DNA of 23,785 bases from a virus. Numbering within the stretch: the stretch's first letter is position 1; every line of letters starts with the position of its first letter. The notes beneath the pieces are model-generated. The model did not search any database. It was not told the origin of the DNA and saw only the letters and a program-made list of their open reading frames with translations. Both the position numbers and the translations under genes were made by a program. The stretch is taken from the IMG/VR virus record IMGVR_UViG_3300017730_000089, positions 1 through 23,785 of that record; one strand, written 5' to 3'. Below, piece by piece: positions 1 through 20,422 of this stretch.

Positions 1-2645
1 AAATAAACTGTTGTTCCATCATGGAATAGTACTATCTTTAAAGTTTGATAATCACTATCTGTGGAATTTGTAACTTGTACTGTATATTCAGCACTTCTAA
101 ATACTGATGCGCTGAATGAGTTAAGTGTGAATTGTGCTGTAGAAGATGAACTTCCTGTACCAACATCCATACCAGCTACTTCGTCTATGTGGAATTTTTG
201 TGGTGGATTTGGGTCTTGAATACCAATAAGCTGTGCTTTTAATCTTGTAGAAGCATTAACTATTGCTATCTGTGCAGTACCTGTAAATGATTGCCCACTT
301 AAAGCATCTGATTTAAGTTCAGAAGCTGATACTGAGTTAGCTGCTATCTCACTTGACCCAACAGCGTTTGCTTGTATCTTTGCGGCTGTTACAGAGTTAC
401 CTGCTAGTTGAGCAGTGTTAACCTGTGCATCGTCAATATGTCTAGTAAGAATACTATTCTGTGCTATCTTTGTGCCATCTACTGCGTTATCTGCAATATT
501 ACCAGTTGCAATTGTGTTTGCGGCTATCTGGTCAGTAGTAATTTGGTTATCATCAATATGCTGTGTTAATATAGCATTGTCTGCTATTTTAGCTGATGTA
601 ACTGCATCATCTGCAATCATTAAAGTTGTAATACTATTGGTTGCTATTTTAGCAGTAGTAATTGCATTATCTGCTACGTCTGCTGTTGCAATAGTGCCAT
701 TTGATATTAAGTCTGATGTAATTAGACCGCTTGATATAAATGCTACACTATTGATAGCGTTATCTCCTATCTTAGCTGATGTTACTGCATCACTTGCTAA
801 TTGAGCTGCTCCTACTTGTCCATCGTCAATATGTTGAGTAAGAATACTATTCTGAGCAATCTCACTTGAACCTACTTGGTTAGCCCCTATCTTAGCTGAT
901 GTTACTGCGTTTGCTGCAATGTGTATTGCATCTATACTGCCAGTTACTAATTCTGCGCTATCTACTGTGTTTGCGGCTAAAGATGTTGATAAAGCTACTG
1001 CAGCTCCGCCATTAAAGTTAATAGCTGAAGCAGTTACATCTCCTGTTAAAGAGAAAGCTCTTGTTGTTGCTAGAGTAGTTGCTGTATCAGCGTTACCTGT
1101 TAAAGCACCTGTTACATCTCCATAAAGTCTACCTGCTTGTATATTTGCATTTGTAAGAGATAAGTCTCCAGTTGATGCACCTGTTGCTGTTGTAGTTGCA
1201 AATCTTACTCTGTCTGCACTTTCATCCCAACCTATGAATACATTATCAGAACTTCCTCTTTCGAGAACAATACCCATATCTCCTGATGGAGAACCTGATG
1301 TGCCGTTTGCAAGTTCGATTAACTTATCTGAAATAACTGTGTTTGTTGATGCCGCAGTAGTTGTTGTACCATTAACTGTTAAGTTACCTGATAGTGTGAC
1401 ATTACCTGTGAATGTTTGACCACCAAGTGCATCTGATTTAAGTTCAGAGGCTGATACAGCGTTAGCTGCTATCTCGCTTGAATCTACTGCACCAGCTGCT
1501 ATGTGTTTAGCTAGTACTTGGTCTGTTGCTATTTTTGCTGAAGTTACATTGTTATCTACAATTTTTGCTGTTGTTATATTACCTGCAGCAATATGAACAG
1601 TATCAACACTACCATCTACAAGATGTTCGCTGTTAATTGCATCATCAGCTATCTTAGTACCGTCTACTGCGTCAGCGGCTAGCTGTGCAGTATCTACTTG
1701 ACCGTCATCTATATGTTTTGTTAAAATACTATTTTGAGCAATCTTAGTTCCATCTACAGCATTATCTGCTATATTGGATGTTGCAATAGTATTTGCTGCT
1801 ATATCTCCTGATACAATAGTACCATCTGTGATATGGTCTGAAGCTATAACTCCAGAAGGTAACTTAGCTGCTGTAATTGCATTGTCTGCTATTTTTGCTG
1901 TTGTTACATTTGCGTTTAGTATCTTTGCAGTAATAACTGCATCACTTGCTATATCCCCTGCTACTATTGTTGCATTGAGTATTTGGTCTGTTGTAATCTG
2001 ACCATCGTCTATGTGTCTTGTTAAAATACTGTTTGATGCTATCTTTGAACCATCTACTGCATTATCTGCTATGTTCGCAGTAGCAATTGTATTTCCTGCT
2101 ATCTGGTCAGTAGTAATTTGATTGTCATCAATATGTCTTGTTAAAATACTATTCGATGCAATTTTTGTTCCGTCTATAGTGTTATCTGCTATTGCTGTAC
2201 CTGTTACGGAATTTATTGCTAGTTCACTCGCATTGATTGAGTTGAGTGCGATTTCTGTTGAAGAGACTGAGTTTGCTGCTAACTCTGAGTTAGTTACTTG
2301 GTCTGCTCCTATTTTAGCAGTTGTAACTGCTCCTGTTGCTAAATGAATAGCGTCTATTGAACCTGTGACTAATTCTGAAGAATCTACTGAGTTTTCTGCT
2401 ATAGCAGCTGCGTCAATAGAGTTATCTGCTACGGCTGTAATAGCACTTGCTTGTAACTGAGCTGCTGCAATAGCGTTAGTAGCAATCTCAGATGTTCCAA
2501 CAGCGTTTGCTGAAATCTCTGAACTACCAACAGCGTTTGCTGCTATTTCACTCGCAGTTACGGAATTAGAAACAATTTCACTGCTTCCTACTGCATTTGC
2601 TTCAAGTACTGAAACTAATGCGTTTTGTTTTCCTATAAGTGCCAT
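1..2645 (-). CDS. Distal tail fibre protein with decapeptide repeats (3' end outside window)
   Basis: This partial reading frame starts at ATG 2645 and stays open to the left edge, giving 881 codons without a stop. The start is supported by GGAG ten bases upstream and by lying one base after the preceding stop. Three parts are visible. Residues 1 to about 390 and about 557 to 765 are tandem 10-residue repeats of the type IADNAVDGTK / IASNSILTRH. Between them lies a non-repetitive domain (about 395-555) that includes GDMGIVLERG and VFIGWDE. After the second repeat block an apparent C-terminal domain begins (from about 770) with KFHIDEVAGMD. The linker ASELKSDAL occurs once after each repeat block. 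I infer an extended, probably trimeric fibre shaft with globular inserts that reaches the host surface. It is the last gene visible in a run of fibre genes behind the promoter at 5738-5766. The exact family and adhesin tip are not visible. Confidence 0.85.
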   Translation of the reverse strand, partial: MALIGKQNALVSVLEANAVGSSEIVSNSVTASEIAANAVGSSEISANAVGTSEIATNAIAAAQLQASAITAVADNSIDAAAIAENSVDSSELVTGSIDAIHLATGAVTTAKIGADQVTNSELAANSVSSTEIALNSINASELAINSVTGTAIADNTIDGTKIASNSILTRHIDDNQITTDQIAGNTIATANIADNAVDGSKIASNSILTRHIDDGQITTDQILNATIVAGDIASDAVITAKILNANVTTAKIADNAITAAKLPSGVIASDHITDGTIVSGDIAANTIATSNIADNAVDGTKIAQNSILTKHIDDGQVDTAQLAADAVDGTKIADDAINSEHLVDGSVDTVHIAAGNITTAKIVDNNVTSAKIATDQVLAKHIAAGAVDSSEIAANAVSASELKSDALGGQTFTGNVTLSGNLTVNGTTTTAASTNTVISDKLIELANGTSGSPSGDMGIVLERGSSDNVFIGWDESADRVRFATTTATGASTGDLSLTNANIQAGRLYGDVTGALTGNADTATTLATTRAFSLTGDVTASAINFNGGAAVALSTSLAANTVDSAELVTGSIDAIHIAANAVTSAKIGANQVGSSEIAQNSILTQHIDDGQVGAAQLASDAVTSAKIGDNAINSVAFISSGLITSDLISNGTIATADVADNAITTAKIATNSITTLMIADDAVTSAKIADNAILTQHIDDNQITTDQIAANTIATGNIADNAVDGTKIAQNSILTRHIDDAQVNTAQLAGNSVTAAKIQANAVGSSEIAANSVSASELKSDALSGQSFTGTAQIAIVNASTRLKAQLIGIQDPNPPQKFHIDEVAGMDVGTGSSSSTAQFTLNSFSASVFRSAEYTVQVTNSTDSDYQTLKIVLFHDGTTVY
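355..975 (-). repeat. Second decapeptide (30-bp) repeat block of distal fibre gene
   Basis: Degenerate in-frame 30-bp repeats encode units such as IGANQVGSSE and IADNAVDGTK. Hydrophobic residues (I, L or V) recur every ten residues beside small and polar ones. Copies of the ILTRHIDD / ILTQHIDD unit are seen near 436, 556 and 829. The block ends at the repeated linker ASELKSDAL. Confidence 0.85.
1480..2630 (-). repeat. First decapeptide (30-bp) repeat block with 120-bp higher-order copies
   Basis: In-frame 30-bp repeats encode units such as GSSEISANAV and IADNAVDGTK. A longer 40-residue (120-bp) period is superimposed: the ILTRHIDD unit begins at 2131 and again at 2011, exactly 120 bp apart, with a related ILTKHIDD copy at 1711. 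Similarity at DNA level is high between neighbouring 120-bp copies, which suggests recent expansion. Confidence 0.85.
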
Positions 2646-2983: not shown

Positions 2984-3193
2984 TTATCCTAATGCGATTG
3001 CGAACGCTAGTACGTCTCCTTCTGTAGCTCCGGCTTCTGACCTGGTTGCTACTTCTACTATTGAACCGTTGGCTGCTTTAGTAAATAACTTACCGTCATT
3101 TACGTTCATTGCAATCTCGTGTGTTGATAGGTCGGATGCAGAAGGAGTTGACCCTGCTGTTTCTGACCTTTTTACTTTAATCGTGTGAGACAT
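2984..3193 (-). CDS. Short protein with tropism-determinant-like N-terminal module
   Basis: A 69-residue protein that consists almost entirely of one module. It begins MSHTIKVKRS and contains STHEIAMNVNDGKLFTKA. The same layout (TIKIKRS, then a small gap, then GELAYSSNSQKLYVG) forms the first 40 residues of the 593-residue fibre protein directly upstream. The pattern matches the N-terminal domain seen in many phage fibres and in major tropism determinant proteins (Mtd_N type), which attaches a fibre to the tail. Here the module stands alone, so it is a paralogue or a stripped-down copy of its neighbour. It starts one base after the upstream stop and lies four bases before the next gene. Function as a fibre attachment or cap subunit is inferred. 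Confidence 0.75.
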   Translation of the reverse strand: MSHTIKVKRSETAGSTPSASDLSTHEIAMNVNDGKLFTKAANGSIVEVATRSEAGATEGDVLAFAIALG

Positions 3194-3194
3194 A

Positions 3195-4976
3195 TTAGAA
3201 TGTTCCTCCGTCTAATGTGTTGCTCCATGTTACTGTTCCATTATTCCCAACTTGAAGTACTTGTCCTACTGAATTTGTTGAGTCGTATGTGCCTATTGCT
3301 AGAGTGGTAAATTGACCACCTGTATTTGCTCCGAATATTAAATCACCTTCGGAGATAGCGTTGTCTAATCCTTTAATTTGTAGAGTATCAGAAACTATTT
3401 CTAATGAAGTATTATCTACATTTACTGATAAAGTATTACCTGATTTACCAAGACCAGTTCCTGCTGTAACTTGTCCAGCTCCTGAGAACTGTGTAAATGT
3501 GAGGGCGTCTGAGCCCATAGTTGCTGTACCTGTGATAGATGTTAATACATAAGCGTTGTCAGCGTTTGTAGAACCTGATTCAACGAATGTAAATAATCCA
3601 CCTGTAACTTGTGCTGAACTATCAGCGTCTTCAACTCTTGTGAAAACTCCTGCTACACCGACAGCACCTGCTGTGCTGACTTTATAGATACCATTCTGAA
3701 CTCCTGATGATTGGTCTTTTATTAAGACTCTATCATTTACTGCACTTACTACACCATCAATTGTGACAGTTCCTGATGCATCCATAGTAAGAGTTGCTCC
3801 TACTCCAGATGACCCATTGTTGTAAGCTGCTGCTAAATTAGCTGTTGTTGCTAATTTTACTGAATCTTTTATATCTAGTGCTTGTTTGACACTATCTACA
3901 TAACCTTTAGTTGCTGCATCAGTTGTTGCTGTTGGAGTTGCTACACCCTGGACTCTGTTACTACCCATATTGATAGTTTGTGAGCCTGCTACTGTGAAGC
4001 CTCCGTCAAAATCTGCTGATGGAGTAAATGTTGCTGTACCTGTAACAGTAACGGTATCACTACCTGCGTTACCTAAAGTAACATTACCATTTAGAGTTGT
4101 TGCTCCATCTACATTCAAAGCTGCATCGCAATCTACATCGCCATTTGCAGTAAGTGTACCAGCTACATTTGTATTACCTGAACCTGCGGTTACATTAAAT
4201 TTGTTATTGTTTACACTAAAATTACCTGTTGATTCTAGTGTTCCAGAGATGTCTACCGCACCATTCATATCAATAGTTGTACCATTGATTTCTATTTCAC
4301 TGTCAGATACTAAGTCTAAAACTCCGTCTGCTGATTGGTGAATGTATGTGCCTGAATCTCCGAATTGTAATTGTCTTGTTGAGTTAAGTAGTAAACCTGT
4401 ATCATGTACATGAGTTACACTTACATCTTTACCTGCTCCGAAATTAAGAACTGCTGCATCTGATAGCAATGATACATCATTAGCCATTTCGATATCTTTA
4501 CCGATAACAACTTTTTCGCCACTATTTGTAGTAGTACATTTGATGTATGAATTTCCGCCTTCATTTATATCAAGAGCTGCTGCTTGGTTGTCTATAATTG
4601 TAAGAGAGGTTGCTTGGTTATCTAAGTCTAAAGTTCCGCCATGTGCTAAGACTAAGTTACCTGCTGCTGAGAGTGTTAATGCTCCTGAGCTTGTTGAAAT
4701 TGTATCTGATGACCCAGTAACTACTATGTTACCAGATTTTAGCTGATTAATCTTACTACTTGCATCAACAATAATTGCTGAACTTGCTGTAAGTGTACCA
4801 GCTGTGTGGTCGAGCATATTTACATATAAATCTCCACCTATAGCTGTAACTGTTCCGTCACTCGGAGCTCCGACATAAAGTTTCTGCGAATTACTAGAAT
4901 ACGCTAACTCACCAGCTACCAGAGAACCAGGAGCGGCGGTGCTACTACTTCTTTTAATTTTAATGGTTTGTGCCAT
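3195..4976 (-). CDS. Tail fibre protein with tropism-determinant-like N-terminus
   Basis: A 593-residue structural protein. Residues 1-40 form an attachment module (AQTIKIKRS, then AGELAYSSNSQKLYVG) of the Mtd_N kind. Residues about 50-345 are rich in short beta repeats with many T, N, G, A and D residues (for example LSAAGNLVLAHGGTLDL), as in fibre shafts. A conserved-looking segment begins at about 350 with ATKGYVDSVKQALD, followed by NDRVLIKDQ and NGIYKV, a combination common in phage tail fibres. The protein ends NTLDGGTF, similar to DTVDAGSF at the end of the gene before it. AGGAAA lies eight bases upstream of the ATG. There is no peptidase or glycosidase motif I can recognise. It is probably a receptor-contacting or side fibre; the receptor is unknown. 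Confidence 0.82.
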   Translation of the reverse strand: MAQTIKIKRSSSTAAPGSLVAGELAYSSNSQKLYVGAPSDGTVTAIGGDLYVNMLDHTAGTLTASSAIIVDASSKINQLKSGNIVVTGSSDTISTSSGALTLSAAGNLVLAHGGTLDLDNQATSLTIIDNQAAALDINEGGNSYIKCTTTNSGEKVVIGKDIEMANDVSLLSDAAVLNFGAGKDVSVTHVHDTGLLLNSTRQLQFGDSGTYIHQSADGVLDLVSDSEIEINGTTIDMNGAVDISGTLESTGNFSVNNNKFNVTAGSGNTNVAGTLTANGDVDCDAALNVDGATTLNGNVTLGNAGSDTVTVTGTATFTPSADFDGGFTVAGSQTINMGSNRVQGVATPTATTDAATKGYVDSVKQALDIKDSVKLATTANLAAAYNNGSSGVGATLTMDASGTVTIDGVVSAVNDRVLIKDQSSGVQNGIYKVSTAGAVGVAGVFTRVEDADSSAQVTGGLFTFVESGSTNADNAYVLTSITGTATMGSDALTFTQFSGAGQVTAGTGLGKSGNTLSVNVDNTSLEIVSDTLQIKGLDNAISEGDLIFGANTGGQFTTLAIGTYDSTNSVGQVLQVGNNGTVTWSNTLDGGTF

Positions 4977-4994: not shown

Positions 4995-5378
4995 CTAAAA
5001 GCTCCCTGCGTCTACCGTGTCTGAATCACTCGAAGCGTTCCCTATCATTATAGGTACAAATTGAAATGTTCCAGCGCTAATCTCTCGGTAGATCTTTAAC
5101 TGATTGTCATCAGTATCATAAAATAAGTCTCCTTCTGCTAGGTTTGTTGTTCCTGCAGTAGGAGCTGATGTTTGCACAAAGAAATTATTTGCAAGATAAT
5201 TTAATGCGTCTTTTATATTATTGTTAGCGCCATCAAATCCAGAGACCGCATTTTCGAAAGTTATACCTGCTGCGTCAGAGGATGCCCCTCCAACTGCTGA
5301 TGATATCGTAAGCGTTGTAGTGTTACTGGTGGCTGAAATTGCTGTTGTATTAGGAGTAATAGTTAATTTGGTAGCCAT
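4995..5378 (-). CDS. Small fibre/baseplate accessory protein
   Basis: A 127-residue protein with a Thr/Ser-rich N-terminus (beta repeats in residues 1-30), a helical stretch around NNNIKDALNYLANNFF, and a C-terminal part with NLAEGDLFYDTDDNQLKIY. The latter resembles the EGELAY...KLYVG core of the tropism-determinant-like module in the two fibre genes downstream, but here it sits at the C-terminus. The last residues DTVDAGSF echo LDGGTF at the end of the 593-residue fibre protein. Its ATG overlaps the upstream stop by one base (TAATG), so it depends on translation of the preceding gene. I infer a structural adaptor in the fibre assembly. No enzymatic motif is visible. Confidence 0.75.
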   Translation of the reverse strand: MATKLTITPNTTAISATSNTTTLTISSAVGGASSDAAGITFENAVSGFDGANNNIKDALNYLANNFFVQTSAPTAGTTNLAEGDLFYDTDDNQLKIYREISAGTFQFVPIMIGNASSDSDTVDAGSF

Positions 5379-5716
5379 TATCGTGTAACTTCCTGTGTGA
5401 CTCTTGCGACGCCTTGAATTAGTCTAGTTACAGTACTTGTATTTGTATTTACTAGTTCTAAATCGTAATAATATTTTCCTGCAGATATACCTGCTGTGAC
5501 TGTGTTAGTCAAAGCCATCTTCATAACTCCATTAGCGGCATCGCTAATAGAACAAGTGAAGTCTGCAGTTTTTGTTGCTGAACTAGGAGTTGGACGCAGT
5601 TGTGCTCGTACGGAATGTGTACTTAAGTTCACATTCGACCCGTCTTGTGCTATCTGTATTTGAATTGTAAAGTCAGACCCTTGGTCGACTACAATATCAT
5701 AAGTTCCTGCTGCCAT
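5378..5716 (-). CDS. Ig-like/BppU-like structural protein, first gene behind late promoter
   Basis: A 112-residue, beta-strand-rich protein that begins AAGTYDIVVDQGSDFTIQIQ and ends LIQGVARVTQEVTR. The layout (GxYDI, QGxxF, a strand with xVRAQLRP, then AGKYYYDLEL and VTRL) matches small phage baseplate or fibre N-terminal domains of BppU type as I remember them; the assignment is by pattern only. It is the first gene after the consensus promoter at 5738-5766, with a strong ribosome binding site AGGAGT six bases before the ATG. The leader is very short, about 15 nt. It probably anchors or decorates the fibre complex, and being first and well translated suggests several copies per virion. Confidence 0.8.
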   Translation of the reverse strand: MAAGTYDIVVDQGSDFTIQIQIAQDGSNVNLSTHSVRAQLRPTPSSATKTADFTCSISDAANGVMKMALTNTVTAGISAGKYYYDLELVNTNTSTVTRLIQGVARVTQEVTR

Positions 5717-5722
5717 ATTTAT

Positions 5723-5728
5723 ACTCCT
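5723..5728 (-). promoter_or_regulatory. Ribosome binding site AGGAGT
   Basis: AGGAGT on the minus strand, six bases upstream of ATG 5716. With the promoter just upstream, it gives the first fibre transcript a strong initiation signal and fixes the start of the 112-residue protein. Confidence 0.85.
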
Positions 5729-5737
5729 ATATGCTAA

Positions 5738-5766
5738 ATTATATCAAAAACTCGAGGTCATGTCAA
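5738..5766 (-). promoter_or_regulatory. Consensus sigma70-type promoter
   Basis: On the minus strand, TTGACA occupies 5766-5761 and TATAAT occupies 5743-5738, separated by exactly 17 bases. Both hexamers match the bacterial consensus at all twelve positions. An A-rich stretch (CCCAAAAATAG) lies just upstream and could act as an UP-like element. The predicted start of transcription is near 5731, about 15 nt before the ATG of the next gene. It sits in the only intergenic gap of this size (92 nt), so it is well placed to transcribe the fibre genes separately from the tail module. It reads leftward. Confidence 0.92.
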
Positions 5767-5808
5767 GAACTATTTTTGGGAAGCATTGGAACAACGCATA
5801 AGTAATGG

Positions 5809-6252
5809 TTATCCATAGGTACCTGAGCCATATAGTACCGTGGCAAATTGTATCTCTAACGCTTGAGCTTTGTCGCTATCTGCCATTATAGTCTTTGCCC
5901 AATTTAACATCATTGTTTCCGTTACATTTTCGTAGGGGGTAACAAAGCCAGATAACTCGCCATTTGCTTTATGTCTCCAAGGAAGTGGTATACTTAATGT
6001 TTCAGAATGAGTTTGGTCTGATTGTCCGCTAGTTAAACTAGAGGCATTACCAGTAGTTGTATCTGTTCCTGTAACTGTCATAGATACAGTTTTTACCATA
6101 TCTGATTCTCTTCTTCTTGGCATACATTGATTATTAACAAAGTTTTGTGTTTCATGTCCTACATAGGCATAAGTCCAATTCCATTGCACATCAAGTGTGG
6201 TTGTTATTGGGTCTCCATTACCATCTGTTCCTGTTTGTATTATCCAATTCAT
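5809..6252 (-). CDS. Conserved-position hypothetical protein downstream of J
   Basis: A 147-residue protein I do not recognise. It starts MNWIIQTGTDGNGDPITTTLD, and tryptophans cluster early (W3, W24, W26). The middle is Thr/Ser/Asp-rich and the C-terminal third contains a helical segment NWAKTIMADSDKAQALEIQF. There is no signal peptide, membrane segment or catalytic motif. Its ATG overlaps the stop of J by one base (TAATG), and an AGGAGG at 6268-6273 lies inside the end of J. It ends 92 nt before the promoter, so it is the last gene of the tail-module transcript. Tight coupling to J suggests a tip-associated or J-chaperone role, but that is only inferred from position. Confidence 0.7.
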   Translation of the reverse strand: MNWIIQTGTDGNGDPITTTLDVQWNWTYAYVGHETQNFVNNQCMPRRRESDMVKTVSMTVTGTDTTTGNASSLTSGQSDQTHSETLSIPLPWRHKANGELSGFVTPYENVTETMMLNWAKTIMADSDKAQALEIQFATVLYGSGTYG

Positions 6253-6746
6253 TATTGTTTCTGATTGCCTCCTACGTTATGTGCTATATATCCATTACCA
6301 TTACCACCTTTAACTACATAAGTATCATCTTCTTCCACATCCATATTATAAGTAAGACAATTTATTGTTTTTTGTGGTATTGCAAATATCTCTTCTCTTG
6401 AGCCGTCCTCTAATATTAAATAGTCACCGACTGCTAGATTTGAGACTTCTACGAATTTGAATACTCCATCTTTAAAAGCTAACATTGGATGTTCGTTTGT
6501 AACTTTTAGATTGTAATTAATCCAATAGTAATTATTATATTCATGAGCATCTGTTCTTGCTTTTACTGTTGAAGTACCAAAACTTCCACTTGCAATTTCT
6601 GTAGCAGTCCAAGTTTCCCATGCATCCTCACTACTTGCGTCTAAGGTAGAGTGCTTAAATGATTTTACACTATCATTTACAGCGACTGCTTCTATTGCTT
6701 TCAATGAACCATCTGACATAACGACAGGAGTTCCTTCAACAAAGCA
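6252..6746 (-). other. C-terminal Hint (intein-like) domain of J
   Basis: The last 164 residues of J carry the recognisable blocks of a Hint fold. Block A starts with Cys2083 (CFVEGTPVVMSDGSLKAIEA). Block B is KVTNEHPML with the T-x-x-H arrangement (His2168). Block F is CLTYNMDVEEDDTYVVKGG. Block G is GYIAHN, ending in His2238-Asn2239. The residue after Asn is Val2240, not Cys, Ser or Thr, and only seven residues remain, so a normal splicing C-extein is missing. No endonuclease domain fits in this length. The domain resembles bacterial intein-like or Hedgehog-type autoprocessing modules. Cys, TxxH and HN are all intact, so self-cleavage at Gly2082-Cys2083 is plausible but unproven. Confidence 0.88.
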
Positions 6747-9700
6747 GCCTCCGCCACCTCCGCCTCCACCTCCGCCTCCAGAGGTGCCTCCTGTTGTTAC
6801 TGAAAAACCTTGTGTACTTTCACCGATAGTGACTACTGTACTTCTAGTAGTTGAATTACTTGATGCAGAAGTTATTTCTACATTTATGTAACTACCGTTT
6901 GCAATATTTACTGAAGAATTTCCAAATGCTCCGCCATCGATACTAAATCTTGTGAATGAAGGATTAGTTACACTTACAGTTTTAGTCCCTGCAAATCCAC
7001 CAACAACTTGTGTGTTAGAGAAAAAAGTACTACTCACTGCTACACCTGTTTGGTTAGCAAAACTATATATTGGGTCTGTAGTTCCAAACTTGATAAATCT
7101 TGCTTCAGCTGACCCTAATGTTTCTGCTCCATCTCCCTGTGCTCTTACAAAAGCTGCAATAGTTGAGGAGCCTGTATAACTAAATGCAATCGGCATATTA
7201 GCTGTTTGTGCACTAGAGAATAGTCTACCTTCTGATAGGTTTCCTGCTGTATATTGGTCTACCCTAGGAGTTTCATATATTAGATTTCCTTCACTTGCTG
7301 TAGAACTTCCGTCTCTGATTTGGATTGAAATAGTCTTAACATGGTTTGTTCCCCCTGTTAATCTTACAAAGCCTTGATAGAATCCTGCTCCTGTTCCAAT
7401 AGTAGTAATAAACTTATTGTCCATAGTATTGTTTTGGAAAGTTCCTATTGTACCACCTGCTGTATTTGCACCTGATGAAGGTAGAATTAAGTTTCCGTTT
7501 ACGGTTATATCATCTCCTTCTAGTGTTCCTTTGAACTTAGCATTTCCTGATGAGTCAATATGGAATTCTTTTGCATGAATTGACCCTGCACTATTTAATT
7601 GTATTCCCTGATTTGTAAAATTGTTTGCTTGTACTGTTGGACTTCCACCTGAGAAAGCACCAGAGGTAACTGTCCAGCCCCCTGTTGTTCCTCCCTCAAT
7701 ATTTAGAGTTAAAGAATCTGATGAGGATATTTTAGCATTTGTAATAGCATTTCCTTTTATGGTTGCGTTTTCAACAGCGTCTGCAGCTATCAATGCATTT
7801 GTAATCTGATTTGAAGCAATATGTATAGTATCAATACTACCTGTTTTTATTTCTGCTGTATCAATAGAATTTGCAGCTATTAGTGCTGATGTGATAGCAC
7901 ACGCGGCTATTTGTGCAGTGCCTATTGTTCCTGTAAGTGTGCCAGCCGCGACTGACCCAATCATAGCACTAGTAATATTACCGTTTGCGGATATTTTTGC
8001 ACCATCAATGTCTCCATCGGACACGGATATTTTTGCAAATGTAATTCCTGCTGAAGCATTTATTTCTGCATTAGTTATAGTACCACCTACAATTTTTGCG
8101 GCAGTAATTGAGTTAGCTGTTATATTATCTCCAGTTACCCCATCATTTTGAATAACAACACTATTTACAGAGTTAATTGCTATTTGATTATTAGTAATAG
8201 AGTTTGCAGCTATAAGAACTGCATTTACTGAGTTTGCTTGAATTTCTGAAGTTTGAATAGCATTTGCTGCAACAAGAGCTGCTGTAATACTGTTGGCAGC
8301 TATCATACTAGTATCAATTACATTGGCTGCAACTATTCTTGAATCATTTATAGAGTTGTCTGCTAACTTAGTTCCTGAGATAATAGCATTTCCTAATTTA
8401 CCTGCTGCATCAATAGCTCCATCTGCTATGATAATACCATTTACAGAGTTAACTGCTATTTCACTACTTCCTACTGAATTTCCTATTAGTATTGTACCAT
8501 TAACTGAATTAGCAGCTATTTCTGAACTGCCTATACTGTTTGCGGCGATTTCTACATTTGTAATACTATTAGCTGTGACTGTAAAAGAGCCTACTGCGTT
8601 TGATGTTAACTGTGAGGATGTAATACTATTAGCTGCAATCGCTACTGTTCCAATTGAATTAGCTGCAATTTCTGAGCTTCCTATAGCATTAGCTGTAACG
8701 GCTACACTACCTATTGAGTTTGCAGATATTTCTGAACTACCTATTGCGTTGGCTGTTATAGCTGCACTGCCTATTGAGTTTGCTGATATATGGGAAGAAT
8801 CTATTTCTCCTGCTACTATTTGTGCAGAATCTATTGAGTTTGCTGCTATGTGTGAGTTGTTAATCTGCCCTGCTACTATTGCTGCTGCTCCTATTGAATT
8901 AGCTTGAATAATAGTAGAGTTAACAGAGTTTGCTAATATCTGTACTGATGTGATTGTATTACCACCGATTTCATCAGAGGTATCAACTTTCATTTTATTT
9001 GTAAATGGAGTATAACTATAAGTACTTCCACTTCTTGAAATTTGTCCTAAAATACTATCTTTTAAATGGTCGTATGTTAAACCTTGTTTATGAACAGTTT
9101 TTCCACTATATGCTCTACTTGGGCTACTATCCATTACTAGAGAAGTATCGCTTTCTATCTCTACAATTTTTGCCATAAATCTAGTGGCTCCTGCTGTATC
9201 TATTGCGATAACATCTCCTTCCGTAAAGTCAGAAGTAAAAGTTGTACTACTACCTGTAAGTTCTGGTAATCCTGCTGTTGCTGATACTGTTCCACTTGCT
9301 TGAGTTAAGTCATTATTCGATGCTCCAAGCTGTGCCATAAATTGATAATTATACTTAGCACTTGTTACTGCATCTATTGCACTTGTATCTTCTACAAGGG
9401 TAATTGCTTTTAAAGGGTCACTAGTATCACTATAATCATATAGTAAGAAACCTGTGCCACCATCTGCTAAATTATTGAATCCGTCTTGTACTGTTTTTGC
9501 GGCATTACCGTTTGAAACTGTTATTGCTGGAACACTATTTGGTGGAGTAAATACATAAGTAGTATTTGCAAAAGTTGTAGTACCATTAGTACTATTTACA
9601 TTTACAACTGTTGTTAGTATACCACCTTTTTGTATTAAGTGATTCATACCAGCAGATATAGCTCCTTGTCCAAATATTGCATAAGCACTATCTGGGAAGC

Positions 9701-12700
9701 TTACTTGTCTTTGTACCCAACCAGAAGTTCTACCATTTGTAGCTACTGTTTGAACTCTAAATTTATAAGCTGCTCCTGGTACAACATTACTAAATACATA
9801 GTCTGATTTATTATTAGAGTCTAAGAATACAGTTGTAAATTCTCTATTACTATCTCTATCATCATTTTCTAAGTCTAAATTATGTTGAATATTATAACCT
9901 ACTAAATGTTCATAAACATCTACTAAATCATTACCATTTGAATCTGTTCTTTGTGTAGTTGGGTGAGTCCAATTTAATACGATAGAGTAGTCATTATTGT
10001 TATCTCCATCTCCTACATTGTCTCCTCCATTTGAACTTCCTGGTACTATCTGTGCAGTTAATCCTATTGGTACAGGAATTTCATCTGTTCTTGCGGGAGG
10101 TTTATATAAAGTATCGGGATATTCTGGAACTTTCCAACCTCTATCTACTGCATCAAATTTGCCTGATTCATAAGCTGCTGCTGCAATACTTACTTGCATA
10201 TCATCTTCATGTTTTATACTCGAAATAATATACTCTTTAAAACTACCTGCAATTTTAACATTATCATCAGTCTCTCCTGAAACTGTATATATTACTTCAC
10301 CGTTTGGTGCAGAACTAAATGCGCTTGATACAGTTATAGATGTAGTATTAAAAGAGCTTACTGCTTGAGTTTCTATTCTAAGGTCATCTGACCAATAAGT
10401 TTGTACAACTGCTCCACTATCATCTTTTATATTACTAGCTTTAGCGTGACTATCAACAGCTGCTCCATCTTCATCAAGTAGTATTAAATCTCCTTGTGTA
10501 TAAGAAGTTGAATTAATAGTAGCCAGAGGCTGTGCCAAATAAGCACCACCATTTGGGTATATTAAGTGTAATTTAAAATTATCACTATTATTTAAGAATG
10601 AACTTAAATCTCTGTCTGTTCTTATAATTGTTGTTGTAGAAGAAGCTGAAGTAGTAACACGACCACTTGCAACTATATCTTGTAAATCTGAATCTTGTAC
10701 TTTTATGACATCACCAGGTTTTAAACCTAATGCATTTAATCCTGTTTTAAATGTTACTACTTCTTTTTCAAGTTGTTCTGATAACAATTGGTATTTACCA
10801 TGTCTTACAGCTTGTCCTTGTGAAGTACAGCCATAGGCTGCAACATTTTTTCTTCTAACTTTACCTGTTTTTGCAATGTCATCGTGGTCTTCTACAACTT
10901 CTACTGCTTGTTTATAGCCATTCTCTGGGTCATTCCAACTTACTGCTATCTGATTATTTCTAAATCTACCTGCCGTACCTGCATAATTAAATTCTCCATC
11001 AATTACATTTGATTTTGAGAAAGTATAAATAGCTCCTTTTTGTTGATTCATTCCAAGAGTTACTTGTCCATTGTACCATACTAACATGGCTCTTAGTTGA
11101 GAAGCTAAGTTCTTTAAAAATTTAATTGCGTCTTGGTCTTTCTGAACATATAAGTTAGTAGTAAATCTAGGTTCTGTTCCACCTTTTCCATCAGGAACTA
11201 ATTCATCACAATACTTTGCTAATTGAAATAAAGTATATTTATCTATGCTACTAAAGTCAAAGTCTTCATCTAAGTATTTACCTAATCCGTATCTTTGATT
11301 TGTTAGTAAGTCATAAAATACCCAAATAGGGTTGTTTGTATATACTGGTTCATAGTTTGCATGAGTAGCACTTGTAAAAGTTTTTTGGTCTCCTCTAAAA
11401 TTACCATCCCAATCTTGTACGGAACTTTCTTCTGCTCCTGTACTTACATTTCTTTGATAAGAAGCTGTAGTTCTTCTTACTCCTGTTGCTGTGTTTGCTT
11501 CATCAAGCGGAAAATAATTTGTAGGAACTTTTACTTTTAGTCCACGAATTTCATAACTTCTTTTTGGTATTTGTTGAAAATCTTTCGCATCTACAACAAC
11601 CCCTGCATATGCAGAATATGGGAAAGTTAATTTATCAGTAATAATATTTTCAATTTGTTTTACAGTACCACTATTATTTTGTTGCCAACTATTTTCTTTT
11701 TGATTAACTGCTGAGATTCTTTCAATTGTTAATCTGTAAGCATCAAATGGTTGATATTTACTTATATCAAAAGTATAAACATGATTGAATGGTTGTTTAG
11801 TTTTTGCTGATATAATGCCACTTTGTGCGTCTTTTGTTCTACCATTTCTATGATAAGAGGATGTACTAGTAGCAATTGTAGCTCTACCTACTTTTGTTAC
11901 ATCTGTATAACTACTTCCACCGTCTCTAGAATATCCAAATTTGATTCTGTATTCAGCAAACCCAGGACCAAGCTTACCATTTTCTTTTTGTGAAATCATA
12001 GTATTAAACTGTAAAGTTACTTTAACTGCATCTACTTCTGAAGGATTTCCAACTCCCATTGTAGAAGAAGTTACTACTAAAGCATTTCCTGAGTATGATG
12101 TTGTTTCTTTAAACCCAAAAGAACTTGCACTAGGATATCCTGTATTTTGTGTAGTACCAAGAGCTCCTCCTGATACTGAGTGAGCAATAGAAGCACTACC
12201 TATACCTGCTGGAGTAGGTAACCATTCTTGTTCACGCTCTCCTGTTCTAAATGCAAATCCAAAGTTTTCGTAGTTATATAAAGGTTGTTGTTGTTCTGTT
12301 CGAGAAGGACTTCCCATTTGTACACCAGTATTTGCAACAGTTACTCCTGCGGCTGTAATAGTAGCAGTATTACCACTAAAACTATCTACAGTATCTTTTA
12401 AATCTAAATATGCTTTTGTATTTGTTACAGTTGTCATAGGAACTGTATCTACTCTTATTGCAGTTGTGTTTATTTGTTCTGTGATTCCTGCTATGAGTTG
12501 TCCGCCATTACGCCCAGCCCCATCAATACGAATCATTGGTTGTATACCAACGCCATCCCAAACATCACTTGCTGCAAAAGACATATTTCCACTATTTGTA
12601 GAAAGAACAATATTGTTACCTGCTACACAATTAATAGAAGAAGTTGTTCTTTTACTTGCGCCTTGTACTATTATTTCTCTTGTTCCATCGGATATAGAAG

Positions 12701-12992
12701 CACCGCTAAATATATTACCTGTTGAATTATCTGTAATTACTCCTGTTCCGTGAACATAACCAGCATCAAAAGATCTTTGCGGAGATATTGCAGTAGCATT
12801 TGTAGCATTTGCAACAGGATTGTCGTTTAATCTAATACTTGCAACACCATCTACCAGTCCTTCAATAGGTCCTTCAGATAATAAATCATAGATAACGGCA
12901 GTTTGAGCACGAATAAGTCCACTAGACTTTACTCCTGCTGAATCGAGAGGCGCTGAACCTCTTGTATTACCTTGTGATGTATTTTGTGCCAT
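6252..12992 (-). CDS. J: Tail tip / host-specificity protein J with repeat stalk and C-terminal Hint domain
   Basis: A 2246-residue central tip protein, equivalent to lambda gpJ (about 1130 residues) but twice as long. The N-terminal third begins with a gpJ-like segment (VIYDLLSEGPIEGLVDG near residue 35) and continues through NQRYGLGKYL and VRHGKYQLLSEQLEKE to about 900, the part that folds onto the tip hub. A fibronectin-III-like domain follows (about 970-1100, GYNIQHNLD, then AYKFRVQTV). Residues about 1344-1757 are decapeptide repeats, then a beta segment (SAGSIHAKEFHIDSSGNAKF), an Ig-like domain (about 1975-2065), eleven glycines, and a Hint domain (2083-2239). The start is fixed by a perfect AGGAGG seven bases upstream and by a TAATG overlap with gene I. 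It likely recognises the host and triggers DNA release. The size, repeats and intein-like end are unusual. Confidence 0.93.
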   Translation of the reverse strand: MAQNTSQGNTRGSAPLDSAGVKSSGLIRAQTAVIYDLLSEGPIEGLVDGVASIRLNDNPVANATNATAISPQRSFDAGYVHGTGVITDNSTGNIFSGASISDGTREIIVQGASKRTTSSINCVAGNNIVLSTNSGNMSFAASDVWDGVGIQPMIRIDGAGRNGGQLIAGITEQINTTAIRVDTVPMTTVTNTKAYLDLKDTVDSFSGNTATITAAGVTVANTGVQMGSPSRTEQQQPLYNYENFGFAFRTGEREQEWLPTPAGIGSASIAHSVSGGALGTTQNTGYPSASSFGFKETTSYSGNALVVTSSTMGVGNPSEVDAVKVTLQFNTMISQKENGKLGPGFAEYRIKFGYSRDGGSSYTDVTKVGRATIATSTSSYHRNGRTKDAQSGIISAKTKQPFNHVYTFDISKYQPFDAYRLTIERISAVNQKENSWQQNNSGTVKQIENIITDKLTFPYSAYAGVVVDAKDFQQIPKRSYEIRGLKVKVPTNYFPLDEANTATGVRRTTASYQRNVSTGAEESSVQDWDGNFRGDQKTFTSATHANYEPVYTNNPIWVFYDLLTNQRYGLGKYLDEDFDFSSIDKYTLFQLAKYCDELVPDGKGGTEPRFTTNLYVQKDQDAIKFLKNLASQLRAMLVWYNGQVTLGMNQQKGAIYTFSKSNVIDGEFNYAGTAGRFRNNQIAVSWNDPENGYKQAVEVVEDHDDIAKTGKVRRKNVAAYGCTSQGQAVRHGKYQLLSEQLEKEVVTFKTGLNALGLKPGDVIKVQDSDLQDIVASGRVTTSASSTTTIIRTDRDLSSFLNNSDNFKLHLIYPNGGAYLAQPLATINSTSYTQGDLILLDEDGAAVDSHAKASNIKDDSGAVVQTYWSDDLRIETQAVSSFNTTSITVSSAFSSAPNGEVIYTVSGETDDNVKIAGSFKEYIISSIKHEDDMQVSIAAAAYESGKFDAVDRGWKVPEYPDTLYKPPARTDEIPVPIGLTAQIVPGSSNGGDNVGDGDNNNDYSIVLNWTHPTTQRTDSNGNDLVDVYEHLVGYNIQHNLDLENDDRDSNREFTTVFLDSNNKSDYVFSNVVPGAAYKFRVQTVATNGRTSGWVQRQVSFPDSAYAIFGQGAISAGMNHLIQKGGILTTVVNVNSTNGTTTFANTTYVFTPPNSVPAITVSNGNAAKTVQDGFNNLADGGTGFLLYDYSDTSDPLKAITLVEDTSAIDAVTSAKYNYQFMAQLGASNNDLTQASGTVSATAGLPELTGSSTTFTSDFTEGDVIAIDTAGATRFMAKIVEIESDTSLVMDSSPSRAYSGKTVHKQGLTYDHLKDSILGQISRSGSTYSYTPFTNKMKVDTSDEIGGNTITSVQILANSVNSTIIQANSIGAAAIVAGQINNSHIAANSIDSAQIVAGEIDSSHISANSIGSAAITANAIGSSEISANSIGSVAVTANAIGSSEIAANSIGTVAIAANSITSSQLTSNAVGSFTVTANSITNVEIAANSIGSSEIAANSVNGTILIGNSVGSSEIAVNSVNGIIIADGAIDAAGKLGNAIISGTKLADNSINDSRIVAANVIDTSMIAANSITAALVAANAIQTSEIQANSVNAVLIAANSITNNQIAINSVNSVVIQNDGVTGDNITANSITAAKIVGGTITNAEINASAGITFAKISVSDGDIDGAKISANGNITSAMIGSVAAGTLTGTIGTAQIAACAITSALIAANSIDTAEIKTGSIDTIHIASNQITNALIAADAVENATIKGNAITNAKISSSDSLTLNIEGGTTGGWTVTSGAFSGGSPTVQANNFTNQGIQLNSAGSIHAKEFHIDSSGNAKFKGTLEGDDITVNGNLILPSSGANTAGGTIGTFQNNTMDNKFITTIGTGAGFYQGFVRLTGGTNHVKTISIQIRDGSSTASEGNLIYETPRVDQYTAGNLSEGRLFSSAQTANMPIAFSYTGSSTIAAFVRAQGDGAETLGSAEARFIKFGTTDPIYSFANQTGVAVSSTFFSNTQVVGGFAGTKTVSVTNPSFTRFSIDGGAFGNSSVNIANGSYINVEITSASSNSTTRSTVVTIGESTQGFSVTTGGTSGGGGGGGGGGGCFVEGTPVVMSDGSLKAIEAVAVNDSVKSFKHSTLDASSEDAWETWTATEIASGSFGTSTVKARTDAHEYNNYYWINYNLKVTNEHPMLAFKDGVFKFVEVSNLAVGDYLILEDGSREEIFAIPQKTINCLTYNMDVEEDDTYVVKGGNGNGYIAHNVGGNQKQ
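6268..6273 (-). promoter_or_regulatory. AGGAGG Shine-Dalgarno inside the last codons of J
   Basis: AGGAGG on the minus strand is encoded within the Val-Gly-Gly codons (GTA GGA GGC) that directly follow the His-Asn end of the Hint domain. The spacing to ATG 6252 is 15 bases, longer than ideal, so initiation probably also relies on the TAATG overlap. Confidence 0.55.
6747..6779 (-). repeat. Eleven-glycine linker tract (GGN repeat)
   Basis: Eleven consecutive Gly codons, mostly alternating GGA with GGC or GGT, sit immediately before Cys2083 of the Hint domain. In an AT-rich gene this is a marked G-rich patch on the coding strand. It is a flexible linker in the protein and a low-complexity DNA tract prone to slippage or exchange. 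Confidence 0.9.
7720..8960 (-). repeat. Decapeptide-repeat stalk of J
   Basis: About 40 in-frame degenerate 30-bp units encode decapeptides such as NSIGSSEIAA. Ile or Val recurs at fixed positions, Asn-Ser or Asn-Ala before a hydrophobic residue. A 60-bp sub-period is clear around 8641-8800, where units alternate between GSSEI and GSVAV/GTVAI types. The repeat language is the same as in the distal fibre gene at the left edge. Confidence 0.85.
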
Positions 12993-18600: not shown

Positions 18601-19572
18601 AGTTGCTGCTACTGATACATCTAAGAAGGATTGTTTCATATTACCGAGAGAAGGGACGATTTGGGATATTATAGAACTTGCAAACATTGTCATAACAACC
18701 ATCAAAGCTCCTATATTTCTAGTTAGAAATTCAACTAAAGAAGAGAAGGCTCCTAAAGGTAATTTTTGTAGTTCTATAACTAAATCTTGAACGGCTACAC
18801 TTAATTTTGAAAATGGATTTAAAAATTCATTTGCTTCATCTTGCATTGCTCCAAAGTTATTTATTAACTGTCTTTGTACTTCTTCGAACACGGCTAATCT
18901 TCTTTCACCGATTGTTAACTTTTCTGCTACTAATCCATTTGCTGCTGCAAAACTTCTTGTTGCAATATCTAGTCTTAATATGATACCTAATTCATCTAAT
19001 AGTTCGGGTTCTGCTTTCGTCACACCTCTTATTAATCTGTTAAAGGAATCTGTTAAATCACGACCAAGAGTAACAGAAGCTAATTTAGCTCCTTCTGAAA
19101 GTTCTACGATTTGGTTTTTTGTGAATCCTGCTGCGGTTGCTATAGCAGTTTGTTGTGCTGCGGTTTGAAAATCGAGCATACCTCCAGTAGCCGCTCTAAC
19201 ACTAGAAGTGATAGCTAACATAGAAGTACCTGTTATTTGTGCTAAGGAACGAAAACCTTTCATTTGGTTTTCTATGTTGGCAGCATTTTCCATTGCTCGG
19301 AAAGCTGCTCCAACTGCGAATAGAGTAGATGCTAGAATAGCGTAAGATTGTACAAGACCACCTGTGCCTTGTTGCATACGAGAAAAACCTTTAGTGCCTG
19401 ATTCGACACGACCTGACATAGACTGTAGATTTCTACGAGTATCCCCTGCAGATTTACCTACTTTCTTTACAGCTTGTCCAGCTTTTTTCGCTTTCTTTTC
19501 AAATAAGGATAGACTACCATCATCATTGATTTTGAAGGTGATGGTGCCGCCTTGTACTTTTTTACCTGCCAT
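15601..19572 (-). CDS. H: Tape measure protein (H)
   Basis: A 1323-residue protein, the longest after J, placed directly after the frameshifted chaperone pair. Charged helical and coiled-coil regions (about 310-440 and about 800-960) alternate with hydrophobic stretches at about 73-94 (LVQSYAILASTLFAVGAAF), 287-310 (IGALMVVMTMFASSIISQIV) and 453-497 (AAVAAAPKLALLGSIFNA, then IAMAFFTLKFVVDF). The C-terminal 200 residues are Gly/Phe-rich (FGEGGMFSKIGASLFGEGG) and end in a typical tape measure motif, YLVGEGKQHEAVVPL at about 1244-1258. It spans the tail lumen, sets tail length and may be released into the host membrane. At about 0.15 nm per residue the tail would be near 200 nm, before any C-terminal trimming. 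The start forms TAATG with the G-T fusion. Confidence 0.95.
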   Translation of the reverse strand: MAGKKVQGGTITFKINDDGSLSLFEKKAKKAGQAVKKVGKSAGDTRRNLQSMSGRVESGTKGFSRMQQGTGGLVQSYAILASTLFAVGAAFRAMENAANIENQMKGFRSLAQITGTSMLAITSSVRAATGGMLDFQTAAQQTAIATAAGFTKNQIVELSEGAKLASVTLGRDLTDSFNRLIRGVTKAEPELLDELGIILRLDIATRSFAAANGLVAEKLTIGERRLAVFEEVQRQLINNFGAMQDEANEFLNPFSKLSVAVQDLVIELQKLPLGAFSSLVEFLTRNIGALMVVMTMFASSIISQIVPSLGNMKQSFLDVSVAATNQQKSLKANVNVQKAKIKEIESKFIASEAKKNIMFKKELKRRGITQKSFNAMTIADQKKLIQKMIMEDKKGVSATGRANKQRQASYQAMFKKIELASAKSAKTLGAHARIMGANLMMMVRQPAILTSRAIGAIGTAAVAAAPKLALLGSIFNATLGIAMAFFTLKFVVDFLPGIQKINEALDKMKEKLKASQVVLTEMAFSFDERLLNSKLESIKESFFKSDGSVDSIAGALRAANAELEYFGKLTGNLELGMNEKAFKKYIDKITMETIRDMGDSGLVSAFGGTMNALSASGGAVQTVPQMLDPNYKMVTQDSAALQAASELMASRLLENVALAMRTGDTVKARDLLATAFGDTIADSAMEGFAEAKGSSRAMAGLMEDLQQELGDNPLKIFEFDFVNNEITGLRENFILALRKANDLVAAINRVPGILSGTREASKSLAEAFGQQIPKPSTIEKNANQIETILNEFVDKKGNIKDLNSEELKLTASIVSVLEDELAIKALTAEQAKDILEAEKERLRLVDFRLDTFKTLMALSKAEMNNLKFVNTRTSKRYQTEQKIFDLRMQMQNNIDKEEQKFSKLVKYGTDQQNNIDRQADGVRAVNRELEVQVELLEASLHRTEMLMKGLLETFDSSAAKNLATLIDTANLGEFGGKEFMKNLAEDLKKTAAKSLAEGMVDSVTDKLTPARFKLNKKLDPAQKIMAAHKYHIDSLADILNQHAKAIGSSLGVSSSGLDPTDPNQMTYGGLFGGDKTNLEGGFVDTIKGKLSGMKDFIFGKKGQVYSGFDHAAVLDPTRKHAPGMKALPEGLTDEQKATLVGGGEVDTSLPNIFERVFGADGMFAKVGKKIFGEGGMFSKIGASLFGEGGMLSGLFGGGDGSGLSGFLGKIFGGATGVATGGVIGLANGGVAKYSAGGIARQPTYLVGEGKQHEAVVPLPNNRSIPVDLGNGSGATNNTSITVNMADGSSQTTSDGAAGLAQAIDAAVQSTIEKELRPGGILAG

Positions 19573-20383
19573 TATCTACTTTTCTGCTTTCGCTCCTCTG
19601 CATCTCTTTTCTGCTTGATTTTCTTATTCAGTGTATCTGAATTATAATATTCTATATGTTTTAAAAAATATAGAGTTGTTTTTACATCTTCTATTTTTAA
19701 TACTTTTATATAAGTGTCTAAAGCAGTATAATCCTTGCCGAGATAATAGCCATTCATTCCATCCCAACGGTCGGAGAGCATATCATGTAAATGGTATGCT
19801 TCCTGTACCTCTACAGGGAGATTACCTCTTTCAAGAGGCATCTTTGCAGGGTCAGGTTCTTCTCCTAGTTGTTCACAAATTGCTAAATATTTGTCAATAT
19901 CTATACTTGTATCTTTAAAATTTTGTTCAATAAGTGCAAGTACTCTTTTTACTTGCTCTGCGTAAAATTTTCCAGGTCACCTACAGTATCGGTTACCCAT
20001 TGATCAAAGTCGCTTGAGTTTTTCATTAGTAACTCCGCATTTTCAGCGTTGAAATCTAATTCTTTCTCAGGGTCTTGTCCACTTATATCTACCAATAGAA
20101 ACTCTTCTAAGTATTTGAATTTTAAGCCTGTCCACCCCTTGATTATTGATGAAACATATTCCTGCATAAATAAATCTTCATCAAGTTTTTCTTCAAAAGC
20201 ACGAGTCTTTTTATTTAAAACTTGTTTGACACATCTATTTCTTAATTTAACTAATTCTTCTCTAGCTAAATAGGTTAGTTCCACACAAAAGCCGTCATAC
20301 CCAGGATAATCTATTGATACTGTTTTGCTTGGAGTCATTAGACTCTTAAGCGATACTGGTTGTTGTTTTACTTGTTCTGTCAT
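19572..20383 (-). CDS. GT: Tail assembly chaperone G-T fusion made by -1 frameshift
   Basis: Ribosomes slipping at A AAT TTT (19970-19964) leave the G frame after Phe140 and continue YAEQVKRVLALIEQ to the stop at 19574-19572, giving a 270-residue product. The extension (130 residues) has no start or ribosome binding site of its own near the junction; the first internal ATG (19841, MPLERG) would drop a third of it. It is helical and ends in a strongly charged tail (KKIKQKRDAEERKQKSR). In lambda, gpGT binds the tape measure through T and recruits tube subunits, and the G:GT ratio matters. The position between tube protein and tape measure is the same. Its stop overlaps the tape measure start (TAATG). 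Confidence 0.9.
19936..19956 (-). promoter_or_regulatory. Stem-loop downstream of frameshift site
   Basis: GCAAGTA (19956-19950) and TACTTGC (19942-19936) pair perfectly, giving a 7-bp stem with a 7-base loop. It begins seven bases after the slippery heptamer, the usual distance for a frameshift-stimulating structure, and the G stop codon lies partly in its 5' arm. I do not see clear pairing of the loop that would make a pseudoknot. Confidence 0.75.
19949..20383 (-). CDS. G: Tail assembly chaperone G
   Basis: A 144-residue chaperone (lambda gpG is 140). I place the start at ATG 20383 (MTEQVKQQPVSLKSL) because AGGAAAAG lies just upstream; the longer frame to 20416 would begin inside the terminator-like hairpin and has no ribosome binding site. 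The sequence has a beta-type N-terminal part (VSIDYPGYDGFCVELTYLA), then helices rich in Glu, Leu and Lys, and an acidic C-terminus (DFDQWVTDTVGDLENF). It has no known catalytic residues. It should coat the tape measure during assembly and be absent from the virion. The last residues after Phe140 are read only by ribosomes that do not frameshift; they end TQSK at TAA 19951-19949. Confidence 0.9.
   Translation of the reverse strand: MTEQVKQQPVSLKSLMTPSKTVSIDYPGYDGFCVELTYLAREELVKLRNRCVKQVLNKKTRAFEEKLDEDLFMQEYVSSIIKGWTGLKFKYLEEFLLVDISGQDPEKELDFNAENAELLMKNSSDFDQWVTDTVGDLENFTQSK
19964..19970 (-). promoter_or_regulatory. -1 ribosomal slippery heptamer A AAT TTT
   Basis: A AAT TTT in the G reading frame fits the canonical X XXY YYZ pattern, so both P- and A-site tRNAs can re-pair one base back on AAA and TTT. 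It lies four codons before the G stop. The downstream frame is open from here to the tape measure start. Confidence 0.9.
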
Positions 20384-20400
20384 TTCTTTTCCTATAAAAT

Positions 20401-20422
20401 GAGAGGGTGTCTCCACCCTCTC
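20401..20422 (-). terminator. Terminator-like hairpin between tube protein and chaperone
   Basis: On the minus strand GAGAGGGTG and CACCCTCTC form a perfect 9-bp stem closed by a GAGA (GNRA-type) tetraloop, followed by ATTTTAT. The GC-rich stem stands out in an AT-rich region. It starts 12 bases after the stop of the major tail protein and ends 17 bases before the chaperone ATG. The T-run is broken, so I expect partial termination or protection of the 3' end of the upstream mRNA rather than full arrest. Confidence 0.8.

Follow-up and report, generated by a model that had tools for sequence, protein, structure and literature searches.

A predicted late-class, host-read promoter ahead of the tail-fibre genes in an uncultured siphovirus related to T5

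A perfect sigma70-type promoter lies directly ahead of the tail-fibre genes in the 23,785-nucleotide stretch of viral DNA analysed here (the window; IMG/VR record IMGVR_UViG_3300017730_000089). We consider it highly probable that this late-class, host sigma70-type promoter starts a separate tail-fibre transcript in an uncultured T5-related siphovirus.

Results

Sequence and setting of the fibre promoter

The fibre promoter lies on the minus strand and consists of a -35 box TTGACA (5766-5761), a 17-nt spacer tgacctcgagtttttga (5744-5760) and a -10 box TATAAT (5743-5738), matching the consensus at all 12 hexamer positions. The spacer ends in TGa, which places a TG one base ahead of the -10 box (extended -10). 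It is the sole 12/12 site in the window, and among window sites scoring at least 10/12 only this one has an upstream extension, the block AAAAATAGTTC (5767-5777, minus), which forms an UP-element-like A-tract directly before the -35 box. The proximal subsite of an UP element is an A-tract around -46 to -41 that contacts alpha-CTD. The conserved AAAAATA of the upstream block lies at a distance that fits this subsite. The discriminator reads TTAGCAT (5731-5737, minus), and transcription towards 5716 is expected to start at about 5732-5730. The leader is predicted to span about 15 nt and to have a Shine-Dalgarno site AGGAG (5724-5728, minus) at its 5' end; ATAGGAGTA is conserved here in relatives. 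Promoter escape can limit perfect consensus promoters, so that the 12/12 score need not mean that this promoter is the strongest.

The promoter is located within a 92-nt gap (5717-5808) flanked by minus-strand ORFs at 5809-6252 and 5378-5716. The remaining operon is nearly gapless, with gaps of at most 18 nt save for one apparent gap of 107 nt at 19842-19948. The latter is bridged by the downstream tail-chaperone frame, which starts to be open at 19976 and thereby overlaps its upstream partner's end. An earlier note on this DNA had described a perfect sigma70-type promoter with a 17-bp spacer in a 92-nt gap of an otherwise gapless operon. This description holds, with its coordinates given on the plus strand and the promoter itself on the minus strand. 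No terminator is predicted ahead of the promoter within the 92-nt gap, and a structured RNA in the gap was rejected after an Rfam search with E values up to 1 gave no match. The frames of the tail-chaperone pair (19572-20416, minus) overlap in a -1 relation, as do lambda G/GT, and the overlap contains the slippery heptamer AAATTTT (about 19970), the layout of a -1 frameshift.

The first gene of the downstream cassette (5378-5716, minus) encodes a 112-aa LtfC/BppU-N-like protein, predicted to act in fibre assembly or attachment (phrog_1084, 3e-27; phrog_3304, 'L-shaped tail fiber protein assembly', 3e-14; PF23926/PF10651 below cut-off). It is followed on the same strand by a 127-aa protein lacking a PHROG match (4995-5378; syntenic in the long relatives G001-G003), a 593-aa tail-fibre-like protein (3195-4976; PHROG matches including tail fibre; 58-72% to G001-G003), a 69-aa tail-fibre N-terminal-like protein (2984-3193; phrog_17885, phrog_1699) and a syntenic 110-aa protein (2647-2979; phrog_26609, unknown function). 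The cassette continues with a repetitive fibre-like protein with NAVGSSEI-type repeats, taken from the ORF list, that runs off the window (3-2645). Upstream of the promoter, the variable 'slot' gene (5809-6252, minus) encodes a DUF7936 protein (PF25590, 1.2e-6) in the window. Beyond it lies a 2246-aa gpJ-like tail-tip protein (6252-12992, minus) with a long repeat region and a C-terminal Hint-type domain (PF05203/PF07591, both below the curated cut-off). ORF translations show degenerate IAANSIGSSEI-type repeats common to the minus-strand fibre (3-2645) and tail-tip (6252-12992) proteins, possibly a common module.

Membership of a genome-wide promoter set probably read by host polymerase

Long relatives of the window comprise G001, G002 and G003 (103-105 kb) and G006-G009 (75-90 kb). 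Between 12 and 16 perfect sites were found in each of G001-G003, against 0.05-0.06 expected in these three and 0.02-0.06 per long contig overall, and spacing among the perfect sites of the long relatives is 17 almost without exception. Counting 11/12 sites with the upstream block, each long contig contains 14-19 promoters. The block AAAAATAGTTC recurs at promoters throughout these genomes, and the fibre promoter is one member of this genome-wide set. In G002, the head operon (38209) and the fibres (14118) each have one promoter in the minus-strand structural block, and this strand has another two farther upstream; the plus-strand replication block contains many promoters of the set.

Comparison of G002 with T5 (AY543070) revealed matches to D2, D3, ligA, ligB, D5, D6, primase, polymerase and D10-D15, as well as to the terL, portal, protease-capsid and tail-tube genes, mostly in T5 order. 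Identities range from 27 to 46% (D5 45%, polymerase 44%). Throughout its tail block the window keeps the gene order of G001 and G002, and it has matches of its own to the tail tube, terminator and tape measure of T5. According to PHROG and Pfam matches the tail tip is lambda-like, while the replication and head core is common with T5. Of the traits that mark the T5 family Demerecviridae, the core genes are therefore present, but the tip is not of the T5 kind. By their gene matches, the long relatives are distant T5 relatives with a lambda-like tail tip.

No match to sigma70 region 2 (PF04542) was obtained in 16 records, with the positive control detected. Single-subunit RNA polymerase (PF00940) likewise gave no match, though here the positive control was also silent; for both searches the contigs may be incomplete. 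As no sigma or RNA-polymerase gene was detected, the fibre promoter is probably read by the host's sigma70-type holoenzyme. Reliance on host RNA polymerase, as the earlier note had proposed, is thus supported by the PF04542 result together with the excess of perfect sites. The term 'sigma70' here denotes a housekeeping sigma of the usual consensus. A host search in GTDB was rejected: the extended promoter pattern matched 86 contigs, mostly at Firmicutes promoters, and the matches sharing phage genes were located on MAG contigs assigned to a mixture of taxa (Gammaproteobacteria, Porticoccaceae, 'Parcubacteria', 'Bacteroidetes'). Such a mixture indicates that binning is unreliable and allows no host assignment.

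The discriminator and promoter timing

T5 offers a precedent for reading promoter class from sequence. Host sigma70 polymerase reads all temporal classes of T5, with strong promoters ahead of both early and late genes (PMC7472727). It is mainly the discriminator that distinguishes its early promoters, which share ATATT there, from its late ones, and gpT5.026 weakens the polymerase contact at this position, with the mechanism of the early/late switch still open (PMC7472727).

In G001-G003, AT[ATG] opens the discriminator in 32/39 promoters outside the late block versus 0/12 inside it, a post hoc split defined once the data had been seen. Four held-out genomes, which had no part in forming the idea, were then classified by strand alone. 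It was found, counting by hand from the listed sites, that AT opens the discriminator in 40/44 replication-strand but only 4/18 structural-strand promoters (p=2e-7). All four structural-strand AT promoters belong to a divergent early cluster, and the four non-AT replication-strand exceptions all represent a single orthologous promoter with a predicted hairpin at the start of its transcript. This early promoter, with the short hairpin GTAAGTGAtaggtTTCACTTGC, occurs at G002 63152(+), G006 5592(+), G007 55773(-), G008 28902(+) and G009 71331(-), and its discriminator alone departs regularly from the AT class.

The fibre promoter has TTAGCAT at this position, and its orthologues have TTAGCA, TTACAA, TTAACA or TCTATT, non-AT in nearly all. 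This places it with the late class, and by sequence correlation it looks like a structural-strand member of the set. The earlier note had suggested that the fibre transcript is perhaps made earlier, and the discriminator, the feature in which T5 early and late promoters mainly differ (PMC7472727), points the other way. An early or constitutive promoter, with fibre proteins preceding the rest of the virion, is unlikely, even though the relatives' early and replication promoters have the same hexamers, spacing and upstream block and a perfect promoter could act as soon as the DNA enters. The discriminator is not of the AT type of the replication block, and T4-like relatives of the LtfC-like gene have a T4 late box as local promoter. 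Early and late promoters alike have the A-tract block, so it cannot alone set the class.

The bases past the -10 box show two further features in this group. Leaderless mRNAs are predicted for 27 of 113 strong promoters of G001-G003 and G006-G009 (loci L202-L213, L221-L226, L325-L343), in which an ORF-opening ATG lies exactly 6 nt past the -10 box, at the predicted transcript start. Examples are G002 74478(+), 51399(-) and 69572(+). The predicted leaderless mRNAs span 10 gene families, including ligA (6 genomes) and terS (4 genomes), for both of which the predicted leaderless ATG aligns with the T5 start codon. In the related contig G005 (L214-L219; 115.7 kb, 44% GC), GGG follows the -10 box in most promoters of the set (TATAATGGG), which constitutes another lineage-specific discriminator.

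Conservation among relatives

Relatives were collected by an IMG/VR search with the downstream 112-aa protein, yielding 80 loci with 61-100% identity. As the loci were gathered by protein and not by promoter, conservation of the promoter is not built into the set. The promoter is present before the LtfC-like gene in 80/80 loci, in the same place and always with a spacing of 17, with hexamers scoring 12/12 in 76 and 11/12 in 4. The earlier note had named loss of the hexamers in close relatives as evidence against the promoter; their retention instead favours it. The claim that the fibre genes have their own transcript also gains support, given that both position and sequence of the promoter are conserved.

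Mean pairwise identity was calculated over 38 non-redundant orthologues, which are not phylogenetically independent of one another. The -35 box reaches 98%, the -10 box 100% and the spacer 71%, rising to 85% over the five positions at its end. The AAAAATAGTTC block (positions -11 to -1 relative to the -35 box) is 91% identical, compared with 34% for upstream DNA (-60 to -21) and 45% for fourfold-degenerate sites of the downstream gene. A second set was gathered by a pattern fixing AATWGTTC, and there only bases outside the pattern count. No near-identical isolate was found in the phage collection, and a short-DNA search of named phages returned weak matches only. A limited literature search found no published account of the promoters of this clade, which is weak evidence of absence.

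Conservation beyond the hexamers, at -11 to -1 and at the spacer end, together with recurrence of the identical extended block across genomes, could also reflect a phage regulator's operator overlapping the promoter. Some relatives have arms, CAAAAATA...TATTTTTG, that hint at an inverted repeat. We regard an operator as the main reason for conservation as quite improbable. The A-tract block sits at the UP-element position, and the arms do not co-vary: one sub-lineage has the left arm CAAATTTA while its right arm is still ATTTTTG, and the right arm in the window is GTTTTTG. The inverted-repeat operator was rejected on this lack of covariation.

The ORF directly upstream of the promoter falls into at least 7 groups without detectable mutual homology among relatives (25, 23, 16, 6 and 6 members plus singletons). 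The promoter and the LtfC-like gene persist while the upstream slot gene is swapped, which suggests a module boundary at the fibre promoter; a recombination site at the promoter itself is not implied. If the element persisted chiefly as a junction for exchanging unrelated slot genes or fibre cassettes by recombination, with promoter activity secondary, this would agree with the contrast between unrelated upstream families and a constant promoter and gene. However, the identical block is present at many other genome loci, where selection for promoter function explains it, and we consider this account very improbable; both functions may hold together. A broader possibility, which we put forward tentatively, is that the fibre cassette is a self-contained module with its own late promoter, whose block doubles as a swap junction for unrelated neighbours. 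If true, any exchanged receptor-binding module would stay correctly timed.

A functionless chance match can be dismissed: the DNA is AT-rich and the first 12 kb of the window contains 35 weak promoter-like sites (shuffles give more), but a 12/12 site is expected only 0.013 times per window (first-order model, spacing 17, both strands), and conservation in every relative refutes the idea.

Discussion

In the mechanism that we propose, host RNA polymerase would bind the perfect -35/-10 pair, aided by the TG ahead of the -10 box, with the A-tract block as a probable alpha-CTD contact. Transcription would start near 5731 and yield a leader with its Shine-Dalgarno site close to the 5' end. Since the hexamers are common to early and late promoters of the phage, they would not set the timing, which may instead be determined by the bases past the -10 box and, as has been proposed for T5, by phage factors that act on the host's polymerase. 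The relatives contain a homologue of T5 D5 (45% identity), annotated in T5 as required for late transcription. With no terminator predicted in the gap, transcription of the upstream tail operon may also read through into the fibre cassette, in which case the fibre promoter would add to the fibre mRNA supplied by the distal part of a long operon.

These data provide a readable transcription programme for a widespread, apparently uncultured group of T5-related phages, in which perfect hexamers are found everywhere and the class appears to be written in the few bases past the -10 box. In many natural promoters of diverged relatives the hexamers are identical and the discriminator is what varies, which renders the T5 switch question testable.

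A parallel is found in the Kyanoviridae, T4-like marine phages that have a homologue of the LtfC-like gene. The T4 late box TATAAATA lies within 60 nt before this gene as an exact match in 5/14 and with at least 7/8 positions in 10/14 of these records, which are related and not phylogenetically independent; shuffled sequences give 0.24 and 3.2, respectively. P-SSM2, Mosig and S-CAM1 lack TATAAATA in these 60 nt. HTVC008M, Melnitz-3, C48C1, DSL-LC02 and S-8S55 thus resemble the present phage in that their homologous fibre gene follows a late-class promoter of local type. T4 late promoters use the phage sigma gp55 and gp33; they have no -35 element, belong to another promoter system and their DNA is not homologous to the fibre promoter. 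A predicted late promoter of local type thus precedes the LtfC-like gene in two unrelated phage families, which suggests that a dedicated late promoter is favoured at this position.

Within T5, the closest counterpart is P-G25 (AY543070 92013-92087), which is likewise of the host sigma70 type, inside the structural block and ahead of the tail-tip and L-shaped-fibre genes. P-G25 scores 11/12 (TTGATA), compared with 12/12 and the AAAAATAGTTC block for the fibre promoter, and it is located between the tape-measure and distal tail protein genes, whereas the fibre promoter comes later, directly before the LtfC-like gene. In the T5-like phage DT57C just 4 nt separate stfB and ltfC, compared with the 92-nt promoter gap here. 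The discriminator of P-G25 reads attgttatt in an AT-rich alignment, hence the T5 rule and the clade rule are alike in place but not identical in letters. The T5 early promoters (P-N25, P-H207 and others) share with the fibre promoter the 17-nt spacing, TATAAT and an A-tract just upstream of the -35 box. They differ in having mostly TTGCTT or TTGCTA as -35 box and an ATATT-like discriminator, where the fibre promoter has TTGACA and TTAGCAT. Judged by its sequence, the fibre promoter is a new addition to the known T5-type set of host-read promoters, in a well-conserved extended form.
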